NCBI GenBank assembly: GCA_019119835.1
Contig: DWWE01000062.1
Span: 1 to 34,477, forward strand
Direction: 5' to 3'
Length of the DNA stretch: 34,477 nucleotides
From: Candidatus Gemmiger stercoravium
GTDB lineage: Bacteria; Bacillota; Clostridia; Oscillospirales; Ruminococcaceae
A model generated the notes under the pieces. The model made no database searches and was not told the origin of the DNA. It saw only the letters and a list, made by a program, of their open reading frames with translations. The first letter of the stretch is position 1; every line of letters begins with the position of its first letter. A program made the position numbers and the translations under genes. Of the stretch, positions 2,049 through 19,575 are shown one piece after another.

Positions 2049-2371
2049 CGCTGCCGCAGCAGTTCATCACCATCGGCATGGTGGTGCTGGGTACCCTGAT
2101 CACACGGTTTCTGCCCTTTGCGGTTTTCCCGGCCGGCCGCCCCACCCCCGGCTACATCCGGTATCTGGGCAAGGTCCTTCCGGCGGCGGTGTTCGGCCTG
2201 CTGGTCGTCTACTGCCTGCGGAATGTGGATCTGCTGTCGGGCAGTCACGGCCTGCCCGAAGCCATTGCCATCGCGGTGGTGGCGGGGCTGCACCTGTGGA
2301 AACGCCAGATGCTGCTCTCCATCGCCGGCGGCACGGTCTGCTATATGCTGCTGGTGCAGCTGGTCTTCTGA
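2045..2371 (+). CDS. azlD: AzlD family branched-chain amino acid exporter, small subunit
   Basis: AzlD is the small, roughly 100-residue membrane partner of AzlC. The 108-residue product is almost entirely hydrophobic, with about four predicted helices, and carries the typical early segment [13 protein letters not shown] followed by [22 protein letters not shown]. It starts inside the last codons of azlC with an ATGA overlap and a GGAGGTGAGGAGG ribosome binding region. Its 3' end overlaps the 3' end of the convergent LysR gene by about 31 bases. No terminator separates the two, so mutual antisense reading is possible. Confidence 0.9.
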
Positions 2372-3279
2372 CCGGTGCCGCCCGGGGCGGGGAACCGGGC
2401 CCGGGTGCGCACCATCTCGATGAAGCGGGCCACATCCTCCGGCGGGTCCAGCTGGTACAGGATCCCGTAGGGGATGGCGTGGTCCCATTCCACCGGGATG
2501 GTCACCAGCGAAGGGTGGACATCCGCCCAGCAGTCCAGTGTCACCAGCAGGCAGCCGGTCTGTACGCAGCGGTTGAACACCTCAATGTCGTAAAACTGCG
2601 GCGTGTCCACAAGGTGAATCTGCGGGTAGCGCTCCAGCTCGTCCCGCAGCCGGTCCACGGTGGGGGAATCGCCCCGCTTGACCAGCATTACCGTCTCGCC
2701 GTACAGATCCCGCAGCCGCAGCTTCTTTTTGCCGGCCAGGGGGTGTTCCCGGGGCACGGCGATGCTCTGGGGGCAGCGGCACAGCGGCAGAAACCGGCAG
2801 CGGGTCAGCCACTGGCGGGAGTCGCAGGCGCCGATCAGGAAATCGAACTTCACACCCAGGGCGGAGATCTGGGTCAGGATGTCGGCGTGGTCGTCCTCAA
2901 ACGGGACGATGTGCAGCTGATACCCGGGGAAAAAGCTGTTCACCTGATACCACAGGTCCATGAAGGGGCGGCAGGGGTTCAGGATGGATGTGCCGACGCA
3001 GAAGGTACGGTTGGCCATCTCGGTGTTCATGCGCGCCTGGGTGATGGCCTGTTCGGACAGGGTGAACATCTGCTTGGCATACCGGTAGATCACCTGGCCG
3101 GCGGCGGTCAGCCGGATGCCGTGGTTGGTGCGCTCGAACAGCTTGAGATCCAGGTGCTTTTCCAGGCTGTTGATCTGTTTGATCACGGCGGTGGAGGAGA
3201 TGTACAGCTTTTCGGCCGCCTGGTTGAAGCTGCCGCTGTCTGCCACGCAGACAAAACTGGTCAGCAGGGGATTGAACAT
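2341..3279 (-). CDS. LysR-type transcriptional regulator
   Basis: A 312-residue LTTR. The N-terminal winged helix-turn-helix is clear ([20 protein letters not shown], then [21 protein letters not shown]), and a substrate-binding domain fills the rest. The ATG at 3279 is chosen because GGAGGT lies six bases upstream and this is where homology to the family begins. The gene is convergent with azlCD and divergent from a cupin gene. LTTRs commonly control the divergent neighbour, so the cupin gene is the first candidate target and azlCD the second. The ligand is unknown. Transcription starts from a near-consensus promoter overlapping a palindrome, which suggests autoregulation. Confidence 0.9.
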
Positions 3280-3308
3280 GGGGCTACCTCCGACTGGCTC
3301 AAACTTAC

Positions 3309-3347
3309 GGTTATAACCATCATAAAGATTCCGTCCTTCCTTGTCAA
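3309..3347 (-). promoter_or_regulatory. LysR gene promoter with overlapping palindrome
   Basis: On the minus strand TTGACA (3347-3342) and TATGAT (3324-3319) are separated by exactly 17 bases. The perfect palindrome GGTTATAACC (3309-3318) follows at once, covering the expected start point. A regulator bound there would block its own transcription. On the plus strand a TACAAT at 3360-3365 is a candidate -10 for the divergent cupin gene, but it has no convincing -35. Confidence 0.7.
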
Positions 3348-3469
3348 GCGCCGCCGCACTACAATAGAGGGGACAGAAAGCGCGGCGGCCCGGACCTTTG
3401 CGGGGCGGGGCGCAGTCGGGCTGTCCCCGCCCCGCCGCGGGGGCGGCCGCCTGGACAAGGAGGTCTTTT

Positions 3470-3880
3470 ATGGAAATCCAGGAGAGAAGCATTTTCCCGA
3501 TCGGGCAGAAAAACGATGCCTTCGCCCGGTATTTTGTGGGGCAGAGCTACCTGAACATGCTCACCACCACCGGCGTGCCCATCGGCAACGTGACCTTTGA
3601 GCCGGGCTGCCGCAACAACTGGCACATCCACCATGCCAAGACCGGCGGCGGGCAGATCCTGCTGTGCACCGCCGGCCGTGGCTGGTACCAGGCATGGGGG
3701 GAGCCGGCCCGGGAACTGCACCCCGGCGATGTGGTGGTGATCCCGCCGCAGGTCAAGCATTGGCACGGCGCCGCCAGGGACAGCTGGTTTGCTCATCTGG
3801 CAGTGGAGGTGCCCGGCACCGAGACCTCCAACGAGTGGTGCGAACCGGTCAGCGCCGAAGAGTATGACGCCCTGCCTTGA
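3470..3880 (+). CDS. Small cupin-domain protein
   Basis: A single-domain cupin of 136 residues. Cupin motif 1 is WHIHHAKTGGGQILLCTAGRG (residues about 45-65), with two histidines and downstream glutamine and leucine positions. Motif 2 is HPGDVVVIPPQVKHWHG, which supplies the third histidine, so a metal site is plausible. Relatives occur beside carboxymuconolactone-decarboxylase-like proteins and oxidoreductases, usually with unknown substrate. The ATG at 3470 follows AAGGAGG with seven bases between. The gene is divergent from the LysR gene and monocistronic, being closed by a hairpin terminator. No catalytic function is assigned. Confidence 0.85.
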   Translation: MEIQERSIFPIGQKNDAFARYFVGQSYLNMLTTTGVPIGNVTFEPGCRNNWHIHHAKTGGGQILLCTAGRGWYQAWGEPARELHPGDVVVIPPQVKHWHGAARDSWFAHLAVEVPGTETSNEWCEPVSAEEYDALP

Positions 3881-3896
3881 CAGGTGTGCAAAAAGC

Positions 3897-3963
3897 AAAA
3901 AAACAGCCGGCAAAGGCATCCCTGCCCCAAGGGGGAGGGTACGCCTTTGCCGGCTGCTTTTTT
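3897..3963. terminator. Bidirectional terminator between cupin gene and DUF6465-like gene
   Basis: A perfect 14-bp stem (3904-3917 with 3943-3956) is flanked by seven A residues on the left and six T residues on the right, so it can terminate both converging transcripts. The loop holds a second GC-rich hairpin. Confidence 0.9.
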
Positions 3964-3973
3964 ACCGCCGGGT

Positions 3974-4243
3974 TCACCCCTCCAGGGGCGTCGGGTCCAG
4001 CGGGATCTTGCCTTCCACACGGTTGATGACATAGTAGGCGGCGTTTTCTTCCGGCTTGATATATACCTTGCAGGAATGAATACCGGTCTTGTGGGTCAGG
4101 CGGTAATCGGCCCGGGCTTTTTCCACAATGGCGGCGCAGTCATATTCCTGCCCGCCCACCTGCAGGCGGATCTCGGTGGGCGGGGTATGGGCCTTTTTTA
4201 CCGGGCCTTTTTTGGCGGTCTTGGATTCAGGAGTTTTCGGCAT
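3974..4243 (-). CDS. Small conserved protein, DUF6465-like
   Basis: An 89-residue cytoplasmic protein. The first 20 residues are rich in lysine, proline and threonine and look disordered. The remainder contains IRLQVGGQEYD, IVEKARADY and VYIKPEENAAYYVIN, which I recognise as the signature of a small uncharacterised Firmicutes family (DUF6465). The start at 4243 is supported by GGAGGG upstream. No function is known. An extended -10 (TGCTATACT on the minus strand, 4282-4290) provides a promoter. The family name rests on memory of the motif and could be checked by a domain search. Confidence 0.75.
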   Translation of the reverse strand: MPKTPESKTAKKGPVKKAHTPPTEIRLQVGGQEYDCAAIVEKARADYRLTHKTGIHSCKVYIKPEENAAYYVINRVEGKIPLDPTPLEG

Positions 4244-4587
4244 GATTTTCCCTCCATTTTCTGCGGTTTGTACTTGGTTTCAGTATAGCACAAACCACAG
4301 GAGAAAGAACAGGGAATTTCAAAAATTTTTGGGATTTACCCGCATTTTTCACATCCTTTGCCCTCCGTTGGCCTGCGGGGGTCCGCCTGACCATTCTTTT
4401 ACGGTGAGAACGTTGACTTTGACGTTTGGTTGTGCTATCTTAAGATTACTTGGATTTTGAGATTTTTTAATGAAAAATGTCGGTTCGGCCGGCATCATTC
4501 TTTGAAAAGTCCGAATCATGTCAGGAATATATGCCGCAAACAGGCGCGCAGCCGCCCGTTGCCGGCTGTGCAGAGGAGGCGTTTTCC
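4244..4587. promoter_or_regulatory. Divergent promoter region before the DegV operon
   Basis: This 344-base AT-richer gap holds no gene. On the minus strand an extended -10, TGCTATACT, serves the small gene on the left. On the plus strand TTGACT (4413-4418) and TATCTT (4436-4441) are 17 bases apart. An overlapping alternative is TTGACG (4419-4424) with TAAGAT (4441-4446). The predicted leader before the ATG at 4588 is about 140 bases long, without an obvious riboswitch. Confidence 0.6.
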
Positions 4588-5439
4588 ATGGTCAGGGTCT
4601 TTACCAATTCTGTCTGTGACCTGACCCCGGCGCAGGCCGAGGAGCTGGGCGTCACGATGATCCCGGACATGATTGCCTTCGGGCCGGGGGAACAGTACCG
4701 CAACAACGAGCAGATCGACCCGCCCACCCTTTATAAAAAGCTGGCGCAGAGCGATGAGCTGCCCACCACGGCCCACCCCAACCTGGACCAGTACATGCAG
4801 GCGTTCCGCAGTGTGGACAATGGGGACGAGATTCTCTGCATCAGCCTCACCAGCAAGATGTCGGGGTCGTACAACACCGCCTGTTCCGCCTGCCGTCTTT
4901 TGCAGGAACAGGGGTTCGCCACCCCCATCCGGATCTACGATTCGCTGCAGGTCTCCTTCGGGCTGGCGGTCCTGGTCCGCCAGGCGGCCCGGCTGGCCCG
5001 GCAGGGGGCGGGCATGGCGGCCATCCTGGCGGCACTGGACGAACTGCGGCCGCGGGTCGGCGTCTATTTTGTGATGGAATCGCTGGAAAACGCCCGCCGC
5101 GGCGGCCGGGTGGGGGCCATCCGGGTGCTGGCCGCCGATCTGTTCAAGGTCAAGCCGATCCTGGTTTTTCGGGACGGCCTTGTGCGGGACATCGGCATCG
5201 TTCGCGGGTATGACAACGCGGTGGACCGGGTGCTGAACCTGTACCGCGAGCGGGCCCGCTTCGGCGGGGAGGTCTATCTCTTCCACGCCGACCGCACCGG
5301 CCTGGCCGAATCGGTTCGGGATCGCCTGCTGCAGATCGACCCCGACGCCCGGATCACCATTGGCTGGGTGGGGGCGGTCATCGGCATCTACACCGGCCCC
5401 GGGGCGCTGGGGCTGGCCTTCGAGCAGAAACAGCCGTGA
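4588..5439 (+). CDS. DegV family fatty-acid-binding protein
   Basis: DegV/FakB proteins bind a fatty acid in a deep cleft and, in the FakAB system, present it to the kinase FakA. The 283-residue length is typical. The N-terminal strand VFTNSVCDLTP matches the usual SDSxCDLxP, and LTSKMSGSYNTA and FVMESLENARRGGRVG are the family motifs. The start at 4588 has GAGGAGG upstream; an open frame extends to 4477 without a ribosome binding site. It is the first gene of a four-gene operon, and its stop overlaps the GTG start of the next gene. Whether it serves FakA or delivers an acid to the GH3 enzyme two genes downstream is not known. Confidence 0.9.
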   Translation: MVRVFTNSVCDLTPAQAEELGVTMIPDMIAFGPGEQYRNNEQIDPPTLYKKLAQSDELPTTAHPNLDQYMQAFRSVDNGDEILCISLTSKMSGSYNTACSACRLLQEQGFATPIRIYDSLQVSFGLAVLVRQAARLARQGAGMAAILAALDELRPRVGVYFVMESLENARRGGRVGAIRVLAADLFKVKPILVFRDGLVRDIGIVRGYDNAVDRVLNLYRERARFGGEVYLFHADRTGLAESVRDRLLQIDPDARITIGWVGAVIGIYTGPGALGLAFEQKQP

Positions 5440-6053
5440 GCGCGCTGCTGCTGTTGGCGGGGGCTGCGGCTTTCGGGCTGATGGCGTTGTCCGACTGGCT
5501 CTGCGTGCTGCGGGGCCGTGCCTGGGGCGGCCGGCTGTTTGCAGCCGGCTGTCTGCTGCTGGCCGGGGCCACCGCCGGGCTGCTGGCAGGGCGGGGGGCG
5601 CCCCGCCCCGCATCGCTGCCCTGGTGGGCGCTGGCGGCGGGGATGCTGGCCTTGCTCTTGTACACCCTGTTGGGGGCGCTGCCGGCGGGGGGCAGCCACC
5701 TGATGCCGCCCACCGAGCCGGCGCTGCGCCCGCTGGTGGACACCGGCGTCTACGCGCTGTGCCGCCATCCCGGCGTGCTGTGGCTGGGCGGGTTTTACCT
5801 GTTTGCCTGGTGCGCGGCGGGTGGCTGGCCGCTGCTGGCGGCCTTCGTGCTCTTTACCGGGCTGGATGTGGCGTATGTTTTCTGGCAGGACCGGGTCGTC
5901 TTCCCGGTCAGCATCGAACACTACCGCCTGTATCAGCAGACGACCCCTTTTCTGGTGCCAAGCGCGGCCAGCCTGCGCCGGTGCCTGCGCCGCCGGGAGA
6001 GCGGTGAAGAAAAAACGGATCCGGAAGGGAAGGATCAGGAATGGAAAAGATGA
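5436..6053 (+). CDS. ICMT/PEMT-like integral membrane methyltransferase homologue
   Basis: A 205-residue membrane protein with about five hydrophobic segments in residues 1-150. The isoprenylcysteine carboxyl methyltransferase/phospholipid methyltransferase signature lies at its C-terminal half: TGVYALCRHPG (103-113), DRVVFP (152-157, corresponding to the acidic pair) and YRLYQQTTPFLVP (163-175). This family methylates carboxyl or amino groups of lipidic substrates at the membrane with S-adenosylmethionine. The C-terminal tail of about 30 residues is charged. The GTG start overlaps the degV stop, and the gene overlaps the GH3 gene by 13 bases. The substrate is unknown; the second acidic residue is not in its usual EE form, so activity is uncertain. 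Confidence 0.72.
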   Translation: MSALLLLAGAAAFGLMALSDWLCVLRGRAWGGRLFAAGCLLLAGATAGLLAGRGAPRPASLPWWALAAGMLALLLYTLLGALPAGGSHLMPPTEPALRPLVDTGVYALCRHPGVLWLGGFYLFAWCAAGGWPLLAAFVLFTGLDVAYVFWQDRVVFPVSIEHYRLYQQTTPFLVPSAASLRRCLRRRESGEEKTDPEGKDQEWKR

Positions 6054-7672
6054 CCTTTGAAGAAAAGCTCAAGCACTGCCCGCCGGCGGAAGTCTGGCAG
6101 GAGTACTGCGGCTTTTTGTCCCTGTCCCTGCCGGAATACATGAACATCCAGAAGCGCCTGCTCATGGAGCAGGTGCAGCTGATGGCGGGCTGTGCGCTGG
6201 GGCAGCGGTTCTTCAAGGGCCATGTGCCCGCCACGGTGGAGGAATTCCGCGCCCGGGTGCCGCTGACCCGGTTTGAGGACTACGCCGACGTGCTGCTGCC
6301 CCAGCGGGAAGAGATGCTCCCGGCCAAGCCGGTCATCTGGCTGCACACCACCTGGGAGGGCGGCGATTTCCCCTCCAAGCGGGCGCCCTACACCGAGAGC
6401 ATGCTCGAAACCTACAAGACCAACATCCTGGCCGCCATGCTGCTGGCCACCAGCCACGGCCGCGGGCATTTCCACGTCCGCCCGGGCTGCCGGGTGCTGT
6501 ACAGCCTGGCGCCGCTGCCCTATGCCACCGGGATGTTCCCGGACCTGATCAGTTCCGAGATTCATCTGCGGTTCATGCCCTCGGTGCGGGAAGCCCGTAA
6601 GATGTCCTTCGGCCAGCAGATGCGCACCGGCTACAAACTGGCGGCCAAACACGGGATGAACCTGTTCTTCGGCATGTCCAGCGTGCTGTACGGGGCCACC
6701 CGCAGCCTGAATATGCTGGGCGGCGAGAAGGCGCCAAGCCTGCGCTCGCTGCTGGGCATGAGCCCGCGGATGATCGCCCGGCTGGCGATGGCCAAATACC
6801 GCAACCGGCGCGACGGCACCGAACTGCGCCCCCGGGACCTGTTCAAGCTGGATGGCTTTGTCTGTGTGGGGACGGATACCGCGCTGTACAAAAACGAGCT
6901 GGAGGAAGCCTGGGGCATCCGCCCGCTGGAGATCGCCGGCGGCACCGAGCCCTCCTGCATGGGGACCGAGACCTGGAGCAAAAACGGGCTGGTCTTTTTC
7001 CCCGACGCCTGTTTCTATGAATTCATCCCCGAGATGGAGCTCTACCAGGAGATGGAGACCCCCGGTTACATCCCCAAGACCTACCTGATGGACGAACTGG
7101 TGGCCGGCCAGAAGTATGAGCTGGTCATCACGGTGCTCAAGGGCGGCGCCTTTTTGCGCTACCGGGTGGGGGATATTTACCGCTGCCTGCGGCTGCGCAA
7201 CCCGGCGGACGAGCTGGACCTGCCGCAGTTCGAGTATGTGGACCGCATCCCCACCGTCATCGACATCGCCGGCTTCACCCGCATCACCCAGCGGGAGATC
7301 GAACAGGTGCTGAGCCGCTCCCGCCTGCCGGTGGAAAGCTGGTTCGCCGTCAAGGAGTATGACGAGGACGGCCATTCCTTCCTGGACCTGTATGTGGAGC
7401 TCAAAAGCGACGACGAGCAGGCGGCGGTGCTGGACTGCCAGATGCTGCAGGAGCTGCTCTCGGTCTATTTCCGCTCCTATGACGGCGACTACAAGGACCT
7501 CAAGCGTCTGCTGGGGATGGACCCGCTGCGCATCACCCTGCTCAAGACCGGGACGATCGCCCGCTACCGGCAGCAGACCGGCCGCCGGGTCCCGCCGGTG
7601 GGCGCCCCGCGGGAGATCGTGCTGGACATCCTCCGCCTGCAGGCGGCGCAGGAAGGAGGGGCCCCGGCATGA
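6041..7672 (+). CDS. GH3-family acyl-adenylating enzyme (diverged ATP loop)
   Basis: GH3 enzymes are ANL-type ligases that adenylate a carboxylic acid and usually conjugate it to an amino acid. The 543-residue length fits. Recognisable blocks are the core GGTEPS (about 301-306) followed by FFPDACFYEFIPEME, then FLRYRVGDIYR (about 370-380) and the C-terminal FEYVDRIPTVIDIAGFTRITQREIEQVL. The phosphate loop, normally SSGTTGG-SK-P-T, reads TTWEGGDFPSKRAPYT (103-118): lysine, proline and threonine are kept but the SGT part is not. The AAGGGAAGG element upstream supports the start. It is embedded between a membrane methyltransferase homologue and an HD-GYP receptor, overlapping both. Substrates are unknown. 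Confidence 0.82.
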   Translation: MEKMTFEEKLKHCPPAEVWQEYCGFLSLSLPEYMNIQKRLLMEQVQLMAGCALGQRFFKGHVPATVEEFRARVPLTRFEDYADVLLPQREEMLPAKPVIWLHTTWEGGDFPSKRAPYTESMLETYKTNILAAMLLATSHGRGHFHVRPGCRVLYSLAPLPYATGMFPDLISSEIHLRFMPSVREARKMSFGQQMRTGYKLAAKHGMNLFFGMSSVLYGATRSLNMLGGEKAPSLRSLLGMSPRMIARLAMAKYRNRRDGTELRPRDLFKLDGFVCVGTDTALYKNELEEAWGIRPLEIAGGTEPSCMGTETWSKNGLVFFPDACFYEFIPEMELYQEMETPGYIPKTYLMDELVAGQKYELVITVLKGGAFLRYRVGDIYRCLRLRNPADELDLPQFEYVDRIPTVIDIAGFTRITQREIEQVLSRSRLPVESWFAVKEYDEDGHSFLDLYVELKSDDEQAAVLDCQMLQELLSVYFRSYDGDYKDLKRLLGMDPLRITLLKTGTIARYRQQTGRRVPPVGAPREIVLDILRLQAAQEGGAPA

Positions 7673-10206
7673 CGCTGAACGAACGACTTTTCATTGTGGT
7701 GCCGCTGGTCTCGCTGATCTGCAACCTGCTGCTTCTGCTCACGGTCCTTTTCGCCCGCAAAAACCGGCTGGTCAATTCCTTCATCGTGCTGCTGGCGGTG
7801 TTCACCGCCTGGACCGCCGGTTCGCTGTTCATGCGCATGACCGTGTGGCCGGGGCCGTCCTTCTGGTATGCGGTGTCGATCACCGGCATCTTCCTGGTCC
7901 CTTTCGTCTTTTACAATTTCATCTATTGCTATACCGACGCCAAGGGCAGCTTTGTCCGGGTCGGGCTGATGATCTGCTGGGCCGTGATCGCGGTGCTCAA
8001 CATGGGCAACTGCTTCATCACCGACCCGCATATCACCATCCAGAACGGGGAACGCCGGTTTGAGTACGGCATCTCCCCCTGGGTGGCGGTGCCCATCCTG
8101 CTGGCGGTGTTCACCTTCTGGATGGCCTGGCACCTGGCCGCCCGCAGCTGCCGGGAAGGCCGGACCAGCCTGCACCAGTACACCCCCATGATCGTGGGGG
8201 TGGCGGTGATGTTTGCCGGCACCGTGTCGGCGGTGCTGCCGCAGATGGTCTCGCTGCCGGTGGATACCTTCTCCTGCTGCCTCAACGCCATCTGCCTGTA
8301 TTACATGCTCTATAAGCGGCGCATCGTGCAGCTGCGCAGCTTTGCCACCAACGCGCCGGTGTATGTACTGGCGGCCATCTGCTCGACCCTGGTGCTGGTC
8401 AACTGGTACGGGCCGGCGCTGCGCTTTTACGACCATCTGCTGCCGGACTACCGCAGTTACCGCACCATTGTGTTTGCGGTGGCCTTCTCGGCGTTCACGA
8501 TGCTGCTGTGCTCGCTGCTGCGCAGCCTGATGGGCAACCTGCTGCTCAAAAGTTCGGAAGAGCAGGAGGAGGAAGTCCGCCAGTTCAGCGTGGCGGTCAA
8601 CCGCACCCTGCACCTGGAAGAGCTCCTCGGGCTTTACCGGGACTTCCTGCAGCAGAATCTGCCCGGGCAGGTGGCCCGTGTTTTTCTGAAAGACCCGGCC
8701 ACCGGCTGCTACCGGATGCAGGGCAGCACCGAAATGGCGCTGGCCAACCGGGACGCCCTGCCGGCCGACCACCCGCTGGTGCAGCTGCTGCAGCAGACCG
8801 GCCACGGAATCACCTACAGCGAATTCAGCCGCACCCGCGGGTTCCGCGCCATGTGGCAGCAGGAACGCAGACGCCTGGAGGAGATGGACGTGACCATGAT
8901 CCTGCCGGTTTTGAGCGGCAGCGAGATGGTGGCCATCACGCTGGTATCCGGCCAGGGCCAGGGGCGGGCGCATCGGCGCACCTCCCTCACCGGGCAGATG
9001 TCCTTCCTGGAATCCACCGCCGCGGTGCTGGCCATCGCGCTGAAAAACGCCATCCTGTACGAGGCGCTGGAAAAGAAAGCCCAGCACGACCCGCTGACCA
9101 ACCTGTACAACCGGGGCTACTTCCAGGAACATATCCGGGAGGAGTTCGAGCAGTGCCGGCACGGGCAGCTGTCCCTGCTGCTCATCAGCTTTGACGACTT
9201 CCGCCTGTATAACGAGCTGTACGGCTCGGGGGAGGGGGACCTGATCCTCCAGCGGTTCGCGCAGGCCCTCAGCAGCCTGGCCGATGGCCGGGGCACGGTG
9301 GCCCGCTACAGCGGCAGAGAGTTTGCCGTCAGCTTCCCCTTCGGGTCGGCGGCCGATGCGGTCGCCTACGCCGAACAGGCCCGCCGCTGGCTCAATGAGG
9401 AGATCCTCCGCTCCGGCGAGAAGACCCGCAAGTTCCTGACCTTCAGCGCCGGCGTCAGCAGCTACCCCGCCTGCGCCGGCACGGTGGAGGAACTGTTCAC
9501 CTATGCCAATATGGCGGTGTATTCCGCCAAGACCAACGGCAAGAACAAGATCATCCGCTACAAGAAGGAGAGCGAGGACAAGCGGATCGCCCACAGCCTG
9601 AAATCCAAACGGGCTCTGGCGGAAAACTGTGCCTCCACGATCTACGCCCTGACCGCGGCCATCGACGCCAAGGACCACTATACCTTCTCCCACTCGAACC
9701 ATGTGGCCGAGTATGCCGCCGCCCTTGCCGAAGCGCTGCAGCTGGATGAGGAACATGTCGAGATCATCCGTCAGGCGGGGCTTTTGCACGACATCGGCAA
9801 GATCGGCACGCCCGAAGCCATCCTCACCAAGACCTCCCGCCTGACCCGGGAGGAATATGAGATCGTCAAACAGCATGTGGAAGCCTCGATCTCGATGATC
9901 CGGTATCTGCCGTCGCTGGACTATGTCATCCCATCGGTGCTGGGCCACCATGAACGGTGGGACGGCAAGGGCTACCCCCGGGGCATTGCCGGCGAATCCA
10001 TCCCCATCGGCGCCCGCTGCCTCTGCCTCGCGGATTCCTTCGACGCCATGATCTCCCGCCGCAGCTACAAGGAAGCCATGAGCGTCCGGCAGGCGCTGGA
10101 CGAGATCCGCCGCAACCTGGGCACCCAGTTTGATCCGGAACTCGGCCGGGTCTTCATCGACCTGGTGGAAAGCGGACGGATGCAGGTGTTCCAGGATACG
10201 GTCTGA
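7669..10206 (+). CDS. Membrane receptor with GAF, degenerate GGDEF and HD-GYP domains
   Basis: An 845-residue signalling protein. Residues 1-285 hold seven or eight hydrophobic segments resembling the 7TM sensor region of histidine kinases. A GAF-like region (about 295-455) follows. A GGDEF domain begins at HDPLTNLYNRGYF, but its active site reads ARYSGREF (545-552) instead of RYGGDEF, and no RxxD inhibitory site precedes it, so cyclase activity is unlikely. The C-terminal HD-GYP domain is complete: HSNHVAEYA, LLHDIGKIG (705-713) and HHERWDGKGYP (760-770). Such domains hydrolyse cyclic di-GMP, or in some lineages cGAMP. The ATGA overlap couples it to the GH3 gene. It is the last gene of the operon. 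Confidence 0.9.
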   Translation: MTLNERLFIVVPLVSLICNLLLLLTVLFARKNRLVNSFIVLLAVFTAWTAGSLFMRMTVWPGPSFWYAVSITGIFLVPFVFYNFIYCYTDAKGSFVRVGLMICWAVIAVLNMGNCFITDPHITIQNGERRFEYGISPWVAVPILLAVFTFWMAWHLAARSCREGRTSLHQYTPMIVGVAVMFAGTVSAVLPQMVSLPVDTFSCCLNAICLYYMLYKRRIVQLRSFATNAPVYVLAAICSTLVLVNWYGPALRFYDHLLPDYRSYRTIVFAVAFSAFTMLLCSLLRSLMGNLLLKSSEEQEEEVRQFSVAVNRTLHLEELLGLYRDFLQQNLPGQVARVFLKDPATGCYRMQGSTEMALANRDALPADHPLVQLLQQTGHGITYSEFSRTRGFRAMWQQERRRLEEMDVTMILPVLSGSEMVAITLVSGQGQGRAHRRTSLTGQMSFLESTAAVLAIALKNAILYEALEKKAQHDPLTNLYNRGYFQEHIREEFEQCRHGQLSLLLISFDDFRLYNELYGSGEGDLILQRFAQALSSLADGRGTVARYSGREFAVSFPFGSAADAVAYAEQARRWLNEEILRSGEKTRKFLTFSAGVSSYPACAGTVEELFTYANMAVYSAKTNGKNKIIRYKKESEDKRIAHSLKSKRALAENCASTIYALTAAIDAKDHYTFSHSNHVAEYAAALAEALQLDEEHVEIIRQAGLLHDIGKIGTPEAILTKTSRLTREEYEIVKQHVEASISMIRYLPSLDYVIPSVLGHHERWDGKGYPRGIAGESIPIGARCLCLADSFDAMISRRSYKEAMSVRQALDEIRRNLGTQFDPELGRVFIDLVESGRMQVFQDTV

Positions 10207-10298
10207 ACGCCGGTGTGCCGCCAAAATCCCGGCTGCCGCCGCGCAAAGGAAATGGCAGCCGGGCAAAACGCAGCCCCGGTCAGCAGCGAGAACAAGCA

Positions 10299-10346
10299 AA
10301 ACGACCCGCAGGGAAAGCTTTGGCTTCCGTGCGGGTCGTTTTTTTC
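10299..10346. terminator. Terminator after the HD-GYP gene
   Basis: A long imperfect stem (10299-10319 with 10322-10340, core AACGACCCGC) ends in seven T residues. An A-rich left flank may allow it to stop the converging minus-strand transcript as well. Confidence 0.85.
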
Positions 10347-10399
10347 AGTTTGCCTTTATCAAGAAATAAGCAGACGGAGCGGGCGGCTTCGTCTGGGCC

Positions 10400-11182
10400 T
10401 CAGCGGTTCCGGTGCCGGACGCAGACCAGAGCGACCAGGGCGCAGAACAAAAGAAAGGCGAGCCCCAGCAGGGGAAAATAGTAGTCGGAGGGCAGCCGGC
10501 CCACGGCCGGGTGGCACAGCACGCACGCCGCTGCAGCGCCGGCCAGCAGCGCGGCGCAGGCGACCACCCAGGCCAGCAGCGGGTCCCCGGGGCGTTCCAG
10601 GCGGCAGTCGGCCGGCTGGCGCTGTTCCAGCAGCCGCAGCAGGTCGGGGGTGCGCAGCGCCTTCCCCAGCGAATAAAAGCGCCGGGTTGTGCCGCCGTTC
10701 GGCATCTTCACCCGGCAGGTCACGGTCAGCCGTCCGGGGGTCTCGCGGATCGACTCCACCTCCAGGATCTCCGGTTCCAGTCCGGTCAGGCTTTTGGCTT
10801 CCTGCAGGTGGGCGGTCAGCACACCGCCCGCCACCATGTTGCGCAGCCGGCGCTGCAGCGGCACAAACCAGAACAGGTCCGCCCGGCGGAACTGCGTGTC
10901 CTCCCGGGCGTTCACGGCAAACAGCCGCCCGGCGTCGTCCAGGCAGAAGATCAGACAGAGGTCCGCCAGCCGCCGGGCCGCCCCGAAGGCCAGCCCCAGC
11001 AGGCCGGCCGTCACGATCAGGAAGGCGGCCGTCGCCACGGCGGCGATCGGCAGGCCGCAGGCGATGGCCAGCAGGGGAGACAGGCACAGGCCGCCGAACA
11101 GCAGGAAGATCCCCGCCAGCAGACCGATCCCCAGGCGGGTCACACCGCCCTGCACGCCCTTTGGGTCATACCAGATCTTCAT
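10400..11182 (-). CDS. Hypothetical membrane protein
   Basis: A 260-residue protein I do not recognise. Two hydrophobic segments near the N-terminus (about residues 15-65) are followed by a soluble middle part (about 75-195), which begins LCLIFCLDDAGRLFAVNARED. Two further C-terminal helices end in the basic tail RHRNR. The middle part might be a PH-like cytoplasmic domain, but that is a guess. The ATG at 11182 has AAAGGA upstream. It lies 23 bases downstream of a degV gene and is probably co-transcribed with it, suggesting a membrane-associated lipid role without proving one. Confidence 0.7.
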   Translation of the reverse strand: MKIWYDPKGVQGGVTRLGIGLLAGIFLLFGGLCLSPLLAIACGLPIAAVATAAFLIVTAGLLGLAFGAARRLADLCLIFCLDDAGRLFAVNAREDTQFRRADLFWFVPLQRRLRNMVAGGVLTAHLQEAKSLTGLEPEILEVESIRETPGRLTVTCRVKMPNGGTTRRFYSLGKALRTPDLLRLLEQRQPADCRLERPGDPLLAWVVACAALLAGAAAACVLCHPAVGRLPSDYYFPLLGLAFLLFCALVALVCVRHRNR

Positions 11183-11205
11183 GGTTTCGTCCTTTCTGCC
11201 GGCGC

Positions 11206-12045
11206 TCAGTAGGTCAGGATGATCCCCTGGTCCTGGGCGTAGAAGCTGCAAAGCCCTCCGCAGGGATGGATCAGCACCCGGGCCTGGGGCCACTTGGCAT
11301 GGATGCCGTGCTCCAGCATCCCGGCCGCGGCGGCATTGTCACAATGGGCGATCTGCACCGGCAAAGACCCGTCGAATCCGTCGTGGTCCATCTGTTCAAG
11401 GATGCGGGCCAGAACCCGGGCCTCGCCTCGGGTCTTGTAGAAAAAGTCGATCTTGCCGTCCGGGGTGCGGCGCCCCAGCACCCGCATGTTCAGCCGCCCG
11501 GCAATGAAACCGACCACCTTGGACACCCGACCGTTTTTGGCCAGGTTGTCAAAGCTGGCCAGCGCAAACAGGATATGCCCGTCCTGGCACTGCTTGTCCA
11601 GCGCCCTGCAGACCTCCTCAAATCCGGCGCCGCGGCGGATCATCTCGTTGGCGGTCATGGCGGCGGTGGCCAGCGCGCCGGAGCAGCTCAGCGTGTCCAG
11701 AATATAGATCTGCTTTTCGGGGTGGTCTTCCAGCACCATCTCCCGGGCGGCGACGGCGGCGTTGTAGCTGCCGGACAGATTGCGGCTGATGGTCAGGGCA
11801 ATCACCTGGTCCGCCTGCAGGAACCGCTCGGCCCATTCCTCCGGGCTCGGGCAGGCCGAGGTGGACGCACCGTTGTAATCGGTCATGGCCTGCATCATCT
11901 GGGGTACGTTCAGGGTGGGCAGGTCCACATACTCCCGCTGCCCGATGCGGATCTTGAAAGGGGCCAGCGCAAACTGCACCCCCGGGGCCGGATCCTCCAG
12001 CTCCCGAATGTCACACGACGTATCCGACACGATCATCCATGCCAT
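11206..12045 (-). CDS. DegV family fatty-acid-binding protein (second copy)
   Basis: A 279-residue DegV/FakB homologue. The N-terminal block WMIVSDTSCDIRELE, the central TISRNLSGSYNAA and the later ASFDNLAKNGRVS correspond to the three family motifs. It differs strongly from the DegV protein encoded at 4588, so this is not a recent duplicate. Many Firmicutes carry several DegV proteins with different fatty-acid preferences. The ATG at 12045 is preceded by GGGAGGG, and a strong promoter lies about 45 bases upstream. It leads a two-gene operon with the membrane protein at 10400-11182. Confidence 0.9.
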   Translation of the reverse strand: MAWMIVSDTSCDIRELEDPAPGVQFALAPFKIRIGQREYVDLPTLNVPQMMQAMTDYNGASTSACPSPEEWAERFLQADQVIALTISRNLSGSYNAAVAAREMVLEDHPEKQIYILDTLSCSGALATAAMTANEMIRRGAGFEEVCRALDKQCQDGHILFALASFDNLAKNGRVSKVVGFIAGRLNMRVLGRRTPDGKIDFFYKTRGEARVLARILEQMDHDGFDGSLPVQIAHCDNAAAAGMLEHGIHAKWPQARVLIHPCGGLCSFYAQDQGIILTY

Positions 12046-12088
12046 GGCAAACCCTCCCGACGGCCTTGCGGTATCCATATCTCTTTTT

Positions 12089-12117
12089 ATTATACGTCCA
12101 GTCCCGTGCCCCGTCAA
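12089..12117 (-). promoter_or_regulatory. Promoter of the second degV gene
   Basis: On the minus strand TTGACG (12117-12112) and a perfect TATAAT (12094-12089) are separated by 17 bases, a strong sigma-A promoter. Confidence 0.85.
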
Positions 12118-15679: not shown

Positions 15680-16903
15680 ATGGCAAAAGAAATGATCGCA
15701 ATGATCCTGGCCGGCGGGCAAGGCTCACGCCTGTATGCGCTGACCCAGAAGCTGGCCAAGCCGGCTGTGCCGTTTGGCGGCAAGTACCGCATCATCGATT
15801 TCCCGCTGTCCAACTGTGTCAATTCCGACATTGACACGGTGGGGATCCTGACCCAGTACCAGCCGCTTGTGCTGAATGAGTACATCGGCAACGGCCAGCC
15901 CTGGGACCTGGACCGCCTGCACGGCGGCGTCCATGTACTGCCCCCTTACCAGCAGGCGTCCGGCTCCGACTGGTACAAGGGCACAGCCAATGCCATCTAC
16001 CAGAATATTTCCTTCATCGACCGCTATGACCCGCAGTATGTCATCATCCTGTCCGGCGACCAGATCTGCAAGCAGGACTACAGCGACTTCCTGCGTTTCC
16101 ACAAAGAGAAGAACGCCGAGTTCAGCGTCGCTGTTATGGAAGTGCCATGGAGCGAGGCGTCCCGCTTCGGCCTGATGGTCACCGACAACGACGACCGCAT
16201 CAACGAATTCCAGGAAAAGCCGAAAGACCCCAAGTCCAACCTGGCCTCCATGGGCATCTACATCTTCAACTGGGACATCCTCAAGCAGTATCTGATCGCT
16301 GACGAAGCCGACCCCGAATCCGAGAACGACTTCGGCAAGAACGTGATCCCCGCGCTGCTCAAGGATGGCCGCCGGATGTATGCCTACCGCTTCAGCGGCT
16401 ACTGGAAGGATGTCGGGACCATCACCTCGCTGTGGCAGGCGAACATGGAAGTCCTGGACCCCTCCCATTCCGGTATCAACCTGTTTGACGAAAACTGGAA
16501 GATCTACTCCCGCAACTCCGGCCAGCCCTGCCAGCAGATCAGCGCGGACGCGGACATCATCAACTCGATGGTCACCGAAGGCTGCAAGATCAACGGCACG
16601 GTCAAGAACTCCATCCTGTTCCCGGGCGTCGTGGTGGAAAAGGGCGCCACGGTGGAGGCTGCCGTCGTGATGGGCGGCACCGTGGTCAAGGCCGGCGCAA
16701 CGGTCGCCCACTGCATCGTGGCAGAGAATGTCACGGTGGAAGAGGGCGCCACCGTCGGCAAGATGCCGGAGGACGGCCTGAACATTGCCGAGCCCGGCGA
16801 TGTGGCGACGGTCGGTTCCGGCGTCAAGATCGGCAAGGGCGCCGTGGTCGGCCCCAAGGCGATGGTATCCAATGATGTAAAGGATGGTGAGGAACAATGG
16901 TAA
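15680..16903 (+). CDS. glgC: Glucose-1-phosphate adenylyltransferase (ADP-glucose pyrophosphorylase)
   Basis: GlgC makes ADP-glucose from glucose-1-phosphate and ATP, the committed step of glycogen synthesis. The 407-residue protein has the nucleotide loop [13 protein letters not shown] at residues 10-22, the substrate blocks [19 protein letters not shown] and NDFGKNVIP, and a C-terminal left-handed beta helix. The AAGGGGAG element upstream fixes the ATG at 15680. It starts 47 bases after glgB and overlaps glgD by seven bases. In Firmicutes GlgC forms a heteromer with GlgD that changes its catalytic and regulatory properties. Confidence 0.96.
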
Positions 16904-18024
16904 GCAGCAACGCTAATGCTCTGGGCGTGATTTTCGCCAACTCGTATGATAACCTTGTCCCCGAACTGGTGGCCGAACGTACCATGGCCTCCATTCCGTT
17001 CGCGGGCCGCTATCGCATGATCGACTTCACCCTGTCCAACATGGCAAACTCCGGCGTGGACAACGTTTCGATCATCGTGCGCAAGAACTATCATTCTCTG
17101 ATGGACCACCTGGGCTCCGGCCGTGAATGGGACCTGACCCGCAAGCGCGGCGGCCTGAACATCATCCCGCCTTTTGCCGAGCGCAGCATCAAGCTGTACT
17201 CCGGCCGTGTGGACGCCCTGGCCAGCGTGCTCACCTGGCTCAGCGCCCAGAAGGAACGGTATGTGATCCTGTCGGACTCCAACATTGCGATGAACTTCAA
17301 CTTCAACAAGCTGTTGGAAGCCCATATCGAGAGCGGCGCCGATGTGACCATGGTCTACAACCGCTCCGAGATCCCCGACGGCGCCCGCAATGACAACTAC
17401 ACCATCCGGATCGACGCCAACGGCCGTGTCACCGAGCTGCTGAGCAACGACTACCGCCCCGGTATGCAGAATCTGTCCATGAACCTGTATATCATCGAGC
17501 GGGAAAGCCTGATCCAGCTGGTGCGGGATGCGGCGGTGCGCGGCCTTGTCTACTTTGAACGGGACATCCTGGCCCGCAACCTGAGCCTGCTCAACGTCAA
17601 GGCGTTCGAGTATACCGGCTACGCGGCCCGCATTGCGGACATGAAGAGCTATTTTGACGAGAACATGCGGCTGCTGCAGTCCGGCAATGTGGACAAGCTG
17701 TTTGATCCCGCTAACCCCATCTACACCAAGATCCGTGACGACAACCCCACCCGCTACCTGGAAGGCAGCAAGGTCAAGAACTGCCTGGTCGCGGACGGCT
17801 GCGTCATCGAGGGTACGGTGGAGAACAGCGTGCTGTTCCGCGGCTGCACCATCAAGAAGGGCGCCGTCGTCAAGAACAGCGTTCTGATGCAGGATACCAT
17901 CGTGGAAGAGAACTGCTCGGTGGACTATGTGGTCACGGACAAGAACGTCCACATCACCACCGGCAAGCAGCTCTGCGGCACCGATTCGTTCCCGGTGTTT
18001 GTGGCCAAGAACCACACGGTCTGA
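16897..18024 (+). CDS. glgD: GlgD, regulatory-type paralogue of ADP-glucose pyrophosphorylase
   Basis: GlgD is the non-catalytic partner of GlgC in Gram-positive bacteria. The 375-residue protein keeps the overall fold ([22 protein letters not shown], then a C-terminal beta helix with repeated VxNSVLxxG hexapeptides). It lacks the GGxGxRL nucleotide loop: the N-terminus reads [16 protein letters not shown]. The start codon lies inside the last codons of glgC, so the two are translationally coupled and likely made in equal amounts. Its divergence from GlgC shows an old duplication and not an assembly artefact. Confidence 0.95.
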
Positions 18025-18076
18025 TCGCTCAAAAAGGCAGACCGCCACATCTCCCCGGCGGCCCTGCCTGATTGAG

Positions 18077-18108
18077 AGGGCGGGGGAGTCTCCCGCCCTT
18101 TCTCTTTA
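18077..18108 (+). terminator. Hairpin between glgD and glgA, weak terminator or attenuator
   Basis: A GC-rich stem (AGGGCGGG at about 18077-18084 with CCCGCCCT at about 18092-18099) is followed by the broken T tract TTTCTCTTT. It sits in the 132-base gap before glgA, so it may reduce, not abolish, read-through. Confidence 0.5.
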
Positions 18109-18156
18109 CCAGCCACGGGCTGATCGCCCTTTCATACACCCAAGGAGGCAAAATCC

Positions 18157-19575
18157 ATGAAGATCCTTTACGCAGCCAGCGAAGCGGCTCCCTTTGCCAA
18201 ATCCGGCGGCCTGGCCGATGTGGCCGGTGCGCTGCCCAAGGCTTTGGTGCGGGACGGCATCGACTGCCGTGTGGTCCTGCCGCTGTATAATGATCTGAAG
18301 TTCAAGGATACGCTGACCTACGTCACCAATTTCAGCGTTCCGGTGGGCTGGCGCAGCCAGTACTGCGGCCTGTTCCGTGCCGAGCGGGACGGCGTGACCT
18401 TCTACTTCCTCGACAACGAATATTACTTCAAGCGCAGCGGCCTCTATGGCTTCTATGATGACGGCGAGCGGTTTGCGTTTTTCGCCCGCGCCATCCTGGA
18501 AATGCTGTTCTACACCGATTTCGAACCGGACATCATCAACTGCAACGACTGGCAGACGGCCCTGACCCCGGTGTATCTGAACCTGTATTACCGCCATCTG
18601 GACAAGTTCAACCGGATCAAGACGGTGTTCACGATCCACAACATCGCCTACCAGGGCAAGTATGGCCTGGATATTCTCGAGGATACCTGCGGCATCGGCA
18701 AGCGGGACGCCCATGTGGTGGAATACGACGGCTGCGCCAACTTCATGAAGGGCGCCATCGAGACCGCCGACAAGGTCACCACCGTCAGCCCCACCTATGC
18801 CAACGAGATCCTGGACCCCTGGTTCAGCCATGGCCTGGATGGTCTGCTGCGCCAGAAACAGTACAAGCTGTGCGGCATCCTCAACGGCATCGACGTGGAC
18901 GTGTTCAACCCCGCCACCGACCCGGACATCGCCCAGAACTATGATGTCAACACCTTCCAGGAGGGCAAGGCGGTCTGCAAGGCAGCCCTGCAGGATGAGA
19001 TGGGGCTGAACAAGGACGGCAGCCCGGTCATGGCCATGGTCACCCGCCTGGTCGGCCACAAGGGCGTGGATCTGGTCCGTTCCATCGCCGAAGGTCTGCT
19101 GCAGCAGGGCATCGAGCTGGTCATCCTCGGCTCGGGCGAAGCCCAGTACGAGAACTTCTTCAACGAACTCTGCGCCCGCCATCCCGGCCGCGTGGGGGTC
19201 TACATCGGCTTCAACGCCAAACTGGCCCAGCATATCTATGCCGGCGCCGACATCTTCCTGATGCCCTCCCGCTCCGAGCCCTGCGGCCTGGCCCAGATGG
19301 TCTCCTGCCGTTACGGCACCATCCCGGTGGTCCGCGAAACCGGCGGCCTGCGCGACTCCATCCACGATTCCGGCGATGGGTTCGGCAACGGCTTCACCTT
19401 TGCCAACTACAACGCCCACGAGCTGTATGAGGCCTGCTGGCGCGCCAAGGAAGGCTACTGGAACAAGGGCGGCTGGCCGATCCTGGTCCGGCGTGCCATG
19501 GAATGTGACTTCAGCTGGTCCAATTCCGCCAAGAGCTACGAGGGTCTGTACAACGAGGTCGTCAACCTCTGGTAA
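18157..19575 (+). CDS. glgA: Glycogen synthase (ADP-glucose type, GT5)
   Basis: GlgA adds glucose from ADP-glucose to the growing alpha-1,4 glucan. The 472-residue protein has the N-terminal KSGGLADV (ADP-glucose-binding lysine 15), the inner FTIHNIAYQGKY, the mid-protein NGIDVDVFNP and the GT-B C-terminal block PSRSEPCGLAQM followed by RETGGLRDSI. The ATG at 18157 follows AAGGAGG. It is the last gene of the glg operon, separated from glgD by a possible attenuator. No glycogen phosphorylase gene lies in the window. Confidence 0.96.
   Translation: MKILYAASEAAPFAKSGGLADVAGALPKALVRDGIDCRVVLPLYNDLKFKDTLTYVTNFSVPVGWRSQYCGLFRAERDGVTFYFLDNEYYFKRSGLYGFYDDGERFAFFARAILEMLFYTDFEPDIINCNDWQTALTPVYLNLYYRHLDKFNRIKTVFTIHNIAYQGKYGLDILEDTCGIGKRDAHVVEYDGCANFMKGAIETADKVTTVSPTYANEILDPWFSHGLDGLLRQKQYKLCGILNGIDVDVFNPATDPDIAQNYDVNTFQEGKAVCKAALQDEMGLNKDGSPVMAMVTRLVGHKGVDLVRSIAEGLLQQGIELVILGSGEAQYENFFNELCARHPGRVGVYIGFNAKLAQHIYAGADIFLMPSRSEPCGLAQMVSCRYGTIPVVRETGGLRDSIHDSGDGFGNGFTFANYNAHELYEACWRAKEGYWNKGGWPILVRRAMECDFSWSNSAKSYEGLYNEVVNLW

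Follow-up and report, generated by a model that had tools for sequence, protein, structure and literature searches.

The operon and its conserved core

The window analysed here, a stretch of 34,477 nucleotides from Candidatus Gemmiger stercoravium (contig DWWE01000062.1 of assembly GCA_019119835.1), carries at positions 4588-10206 four genes that an earlier note, made from the sequence, had described as an overlapping operon. An open reading frame (ORF) check bore this out: all four frames are open, all lie on the + strand, and the junctions DegV/ICMT-like, ICMT-like/GH3 and GH3/receptor overlap by 4, 13 and 4 bases, respectively. The first gene (4588..5439, +) encodes a DegV/FakB-like protein that is probably fatty-acid-binding, and the second (5436..6053, +), which has a GTG start, a putative ICMT/PEMT-like integral membrane methyltransferase. 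The third (6041..7672, +) encodes a GH3-like protein, from a subfamily of its own, that is predicted to be an adenylate-forming acyl-acid amido synthetase, and the fourth (7669..10206, +) a receptor composed of a multi-pass membrane sensor (HisKA_7TM-like), a GAF domain, a degenerate GGDEF domain and an intact HD-GYP domain. The window's assembly (2.36 Mb, 93% complete) contains a single match to the GH3 protein, and a scan of named genome contigs identified Gemmiger species as the closest named relatives.

The GH3 protein or its alignment was searched against genome samples of the window's family (297 genomes), order (394), phylum (398) and class (291), and named genome contigs were scanned once with short patterns of the window protein, yielding 18 loci. 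The genome searches cover the window's phylum, and other phyla were reached by pattern scans of the named genome contigs and of viral contigs. Search scores split into two groups, at or above 250 bits and below 80 bits. The high-scoring group, referred to here as the GH3 clade, comprises 42 genomes from 16 families of one phylum (20 from the family search, with 5, 12 and 5 added by the order, phylum and class searches). An ICMT-like gene directly upstream and a receptor sensor directly downstream, both on the same strand as GH3, were found in all 42, including two genomes (G506 and G943) in which a contig end splits the GH3 gene and each half retains its expected neighbour. All three genes are present at 16 of the 18 loci of the named collection, the remaining two (L036 and L047) being cut by the contig; at L043 about 0.3 kb separates the ICMT-like and GH3 genes.

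Low-scoring GH3 genes served as controls, and none of their 40 places had an ICMT-like or sensor match within flanks that mostly reached about 5 kb beyond the gene (places were fetched with about 6 kb per side, and at L175, L190, L204, L208 and L212 one side ends less than 200 bases from the GH3 frame). At two of the 40 places (L187 and L194) there is a GGDEF/HD-type match over 3 kb from GH3, which is unrelated. Three genomes (G1132, G1220 and G1171) each hold one GH3 gene of both kinds, and there the neighbours occur only beside the clade member.

Clustering of ORFs over 46 loci revealed no fifth conserved gene among clusters found in at least four loci, DegV being the only addition to the triad; most clusters appear to stem from other reading frames of the four genes, and some are flank genes of close relatives. 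Since varied genes flank the same triad and none recurs, the conserved unit is three genes. DegV lies directly upstream of the ICMT-like gene at 22 of 46 informative loci (51 minus three duplicates and minus L043 and L047, which are cut at the upstream end) and, among genomes outside the named collection, adjoins the triad only in the window's family and in a second family of the same order (G513 and G558); it is an accessory gene outside the conserved core. The recurrence of a DegV-ICMT-GH3-HD-GYP order across genera, to which the earlier note had looked for support, thus holds for the last three positions and fails for DegV. The grouping is not a product of chance, as no GH3-clade genome examined lacks it.

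A profile of the sensor domain (27 sequences, threshold E<=1e-10) matched 23 of the 297 family genomes: each of the 20 that belong to the GH3 clade, and 3 of the remaining 277. Sensor and GH3 clade therefore occur together in 20 genomes, the sensor alone in 3 and the GH3 clade alone in none (Fisher p=3e-28), a test that is biased upwards because the profile was built on GH3-adjacent receptors. Scattered genes or a receptor rarely found with GH3, which the earlier note would have taken as signs of a chance grouping, were not what the genomes contained. The three sensors in family genomes without the GH3 clade (G020, G185 and G024) score lower, at 147-198 bits vs 279-354 in GH3-clade genomes. 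Two are lone HD-GYP receptors with no adjoining GH3 or ICMT-like gene (L160 in G020, 4958-7444; L161 in G185, 8335-10950), and the third, in G024, runs off its contig end. In a phylum sample of 309 genomes the sensor was found in 11, including the window's own; ten belong to the GH3 clade, and the other (G782) is a weak match of 74 bits. Where a related receptor stands alone, the genome may be that of a listener. Pairwise divergences of GH3 and sensor are correlated across 43 loci (Mantel r=0.92; largest of 999 permutations 0.23), and those of GH3 and the ICMT-like protein show a correlation of 0.75, 8 of the 51 loci having been dropped as duplicates or incomplete.

The module is patchily distributed, being present in the 20 family genomes noted above and absent from three genomes of the same genus; it is also found in metagenome-assembled genomes of Syntrophomonadaceae and in deep branches. 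Gemmiger formicilis An812 (L045) is one of its named carriers. No plasmid matched the window GH3 protein. One viral-contig match (L173, IMGVR_UViG_2744054950_000006) holds the whole triad at 2461-7211, near the contig end, and may represent host DNA beside a provirus. Apparent ICMT-GH3 fusions in seven loci proved to be an artefact of tblastn matches running past a stop codon. By stop-to-stop frames, L123 (2199-5171, - strand) is the sole locus where a single open frame holds both the ICMT-like and the GH3 sequence; an internal methionine is kept at the GH3 start, so this may not be a true fusion. At L138 the receptor coding sequence is split over two frames (9521-12111), and the adjoining ICMT-like and GH3 genes are open.

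Domain and motif content of the encoded proteins

The window GH3 protein scores 46.4 bits against GH3_M (cut-off 23.6) and 22.9 bits, just below 23.6, against the GH3 N-terminal domain. Its AlphaFold model (predicted local distance difference test score, pLDDT, 87) matches GH3 and PaaK structures in Foldseek with E of about 1e-18, and plant GH3 enzymes lead the matches of the GH3-clade profile in the Protein Data Bank (PDB; best 2.4e-11). The plant enzymes JAR1, GH3.5 and GH3.12 have the fold, motif III and profile matches in common with the window protein; they differ in motif I and are about 15% identical in structure alignments. Motif III (GGAFLRYRVGD, within the pattern GGAFxRYRVGD and containing RYRxGD) and a motif II-like GGTEP are kept in the window protein, whose motif I, TTWEGGDFPSK, departs from the nucleotide motif (S/T)SG(S/T)xGxxK. 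Across the clade (n=52) motif I begins TTWE in 44 proteins, TTWK in 4, TSGK in 3 and TSGR in 1, the last four being the most divergent members; among the other GH3s (n=40), 39 have (S/T)SG(S/T) and one TGGS. Judged by motif I, the clade GH3s form their own subfamily, in which TTWEGG replaces (S/T)SG(S/T). To our knowledge, few bacterial GH3 enzymes have a known role, and the unbroken pairing of this one subfamily with a receptor opens a direct way to find what it makes. Enzymes of the plant-hormone GH3 type are reported to be widespread in bacteria (PMC12493201).

The ICMT-like proteins have about 200 residues, several hydrophobic segments and the motifs GxYxxxRHPG and, at the C-terminus, YxxYxxxxPFLxP (FPxxxxxYxxYxxxxPFLxP in the window), which we take to be an ICMT/PEMT pattern. 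The window protein (205 aa) has no Pfam match of its own; among 24 family members, at E<=0.1, PEMT was matched by 14 (best 9e-7), ICMT by 5 (best 6e-4), DUF1295 by 4 and Steroid_dh by 1 (2.5e-5). Its AlphaFold model (pLDDT 86.7) gave weak Foldseek matches, with a steroid 5-alpha-reductase ranking first (E 0.49) and Ma-ICMT at a match probability of 0.89 and E 1.2, and the family profile returned one irrelevant match (E 0.28) among solved structures. With structure matches this weak, and a steroid reductase leading them, the protein is no more than a likely methyltransferase.

In the window receptor, Pfam identifies GGDEF and HD_5/HD domains, and the N-terminal 300 residues contain about eight hydrophobic segments; HisKA_7TM and GAF domains were found in the receptor of a relative (L043). 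The HD-GYP residues are intact (HDIGK and HHERWDGKGYP), as expected of a phosphodiesterase, and the GGDEF signature reads SGREF, not the GG(D/E)EF of an active diguanylate cyclase. The last gene is therefore the HD-GYP receptor that the earlier note had named, with the correction that it also holds a degenerate GGDEF domain. The note's further claim, that the receptor destroys a cyclic dinucleotide, is consistent with the window's residues and does not extend to every relative. HD-GYP residues are intact at 46 of 50 loci (duplicates counted), and one of the four outside this set, L037, is cut by its contig. At L123 (5153-7336, - strand) the same sensor is joined to HisKA, HATPase and REC domains, making a hybrid histidine kinase; the L136 receptor has GAF and GGDEF and no HD-GYP, and that of L137 has an intact GGDEF and a degraded HD-GYP. 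The third residue of the GGDEF signature is lysine at 35 of the 48 loci holding the domain and D or E at 13; in the window it is arginine. As the residue is neither D nor E in most loci, the cyclase is probably inactive there.

The window DegV protein scores 211 bits against the Pfam DegV domain and 110 bits against the NCBIfam model FakB1, below the cut-off of 350. FakB-type DegV proteins bind fatty acids. A second DegV-family gene (11206-12051, - strand, 160 bits) lies just past the operon, so that at least two DegV proteins are encoded within 8 kb of this genome.

A proposed acyl-compound module and its alternatives

The earlier note had suggested that an acyl conjugate is made and sensed by one unit, and this remains our best reading, favoured because the receptor outputs are swapped: a receptor that is kept beside the same two enzymes as its output changes is expected if it reads their product or substrate. 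The order, linkage and co-occurrence of the genes, their domains and motifs and the output swaps are observations. Every chemical step is inference, including the substrates, the methylation, the identity of the ligand and the direction of the response in cyclic di-GMP (c-di-GMP). The GH3-like enzyme would form the acyl-AMP of a carboxylic acid (probably a fatty acid) and transfer the acyl group to an amine, for instance an amino acid. The conjugate would then be methylated by the ICMT/PEMT-like protein in the membrane, as a carboxyl ester or on an amine, and the multi-pass membrane receptor would bind the compound or its precursor. In the window receptor, binding would be relayed by GAF and the degenerate GGDEF domain to switch HD-GYP hydrolysis of c-di-GMP. 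At loci that have it, DegV could supply or buffer the acid as a FakB-type fatty-acid carrier. In our judgement the chances are about even that a single small acyl compound is both produced and sensed by the core operon, capped by the methyltransferase, with the receptor tuning c-di-GMP.

The closest described enzyme is OlsH of Singulisphaera acidiphila, a bacterial GH3 that forms N-acyl ornithine from a fatty acid, ATP and ornithine and whose operon, OlsH-OlsG-OlsI, includes a methyltransferase gene (PMC12493201). The two systems are alike in having a GH3-family gene beside a methyltransferase gene, and fatty-acid activation with ATP and N-acylation of an amino acid by OlsH are what is proposed for the window GH3. 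They differ in that the three-gene operon is described without a receptor, OlsG is described as a lipid N-methyltransferase in place of the ICMT/PEMT-like protein, and motif I of OlsH is TSGTTQGATK. The Ols operon also has an O-acyltransferase, OlsI, with an alpha/beta-hydrolase fold; no further recurring gene was seen by the triad, a survey that involved no dedicated OlsI search. Natural products described so far include N-acyl alanine methyl esters (PMC11580390). The OlsH precedent, fatty-acid binding by FakB and known acyl methyl esters and signals together point to a fatty-acyl conjugate that would be methylated at the membrane, sensed and answered via c-di-GMP.

As a signalling device, the proposed module would work like the diffusible signal factor (DSF) or Phc systems with different synthases. 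DSF/Rpf of xanthomonads (RpfF, RpfC and RpfG) likewise combines a fatty-acid signal, a membrane sensor kinase and an HD-GYP protein, and the hybrid-kinase variant at L123 is similar to RpfC in layout. Its sensor and HD-GYP domains are on separate proteins, unlike the single protein of the window, and we know of no GH3 or methyltransferase in it. RpfF is a crotonase-type synthase, and no crotonase family was among the Pfam matches of the window operon, which holds DegV, ICMT-like and GH3 genes instead. Phc of Ralstonia (PhcB and PhcS, phcBSR operon) resembles the proposal in that a methyltransferase makes a fatty-acid methyl ester signal read by a sensor kinase; its output is a histidine kinase, whereas that of the window receptor is HD-GYP, and we know of no GH3 in it. 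A literature search in which subscription papers were thinly covered returned no account of this gene combination, with OlsH as the sole relevant match. The design of synthase plus receptor is already known and the parts are new in combination; the system would be categorically new only if the product is a signal. We regard as possible, and put forward only tentatively, a new class of signal between bacterial cells: an acyl-amino acid (or acyl-amine) in methylated form, which a divergent GH3 subfamily and the membrane methyltransferase would produce and a dedicated multi-pass receptor with exchangeable outputs (c-di-GMP hydrolysis, c-di-GMP synthesis or phosphorelay) would read. It could be a lipid-derived signal controlling c-di-GMP in Gemmiger and its relatives.

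Several observations weigh against a compound that is made and sensed by one unit. Motif I is altered, with TTWEGG for (S/T)SG(S/T) and one residue inserted, so catalysis could differ or be lost. The methyltransferase assignment of the window protein is weak (no Pfam match; Foldseek E 0.49-1.2), and no exporter or other gene recurs beside the triad in the 46-locus clustering or among the nearest flanking ORFs of the 23 loci without DegV. Three family genomes and G782 carry a related sensor without the GH3 clade, and the sensor profile was itself derived from GH3-adjacent receptors.

The strongest rival is a methylated membrane aminolipid: GH3 and a PEMT-type N-methyltransferase would build a methylated N-acyl amino acid lipid, and the receptor would monitor membrane lipid status, not a released signal. 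Its parallel is the planctomycete OlsH, which makes N-acyl ornithine and shares an operon with the N-methyltransferase OlsG (PMC12493201), and members of the ICMT-like family match PEMT more often than any other Pfam family (14 of 24). We nevertheless think it somewhat unlikely, as a dedicated receptor with swapped outputs at every locus exceeds the needs of a lipid pathway, the clade GH3s differ from OlsH at motif I, and the flank surveys, which included no search dedicated to OlsI, found no O-acyltransferase or hydrolase recurring beside the module. The receptor might instead detect an environmental carboxylic acid, which GH3 and the methyltransferase would inactivate by conjugation and methylation. 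Plant GH3s, the leading PDB matches, conjugate hormones and inactivate auxin, and several named carriers belong to genera known as gut bacteria, which would meet plant-derived acids. The module is also carried by the Syntrophomonadaceae genomes and deep branches, however, and so is probably not gut-specific, and the flank surveys revealed no recurring gene for uptake or degradation; we consider this explanation improbable. An ordinary co-regulated operon, its genes neighbours by chance or shared demand without functional coupling, would suit the lineage-limited association of DegV. It is contradicted for the three-gene core by the triad in 42 of 42 genomes across 16 families vs none of 40 other GH3 places, and by the same three genes standing amid varied flanks, and we find it very hard to credit.

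Neighbouring features of the window

Upstream of the operon, promoter-like sites at 4413..4446 (+) consist of two overlapping 9-of-12 sigma-70-like matches; three such matches were observed in the upstream region on both strands vs 0.9 expected, a weak excess by consensus only. Riboswitch control of the operon was considered and is unsupported: at gathering thresholds Rfam had no match in the window, and the loci of five relatives yielded no c-di-GMP riboswitch. A LysR-type regulator is encoded further upstream (2341-3300, - strand), and five named loci have apparent relatives of it at a distance of 3-6 kb from GH3, on one side or the other. Downstream, at 15680-19575 (+), two nucleotidyl transferase genes and a starch-synthase-like gene form a group of the glycogen-synthesis type.

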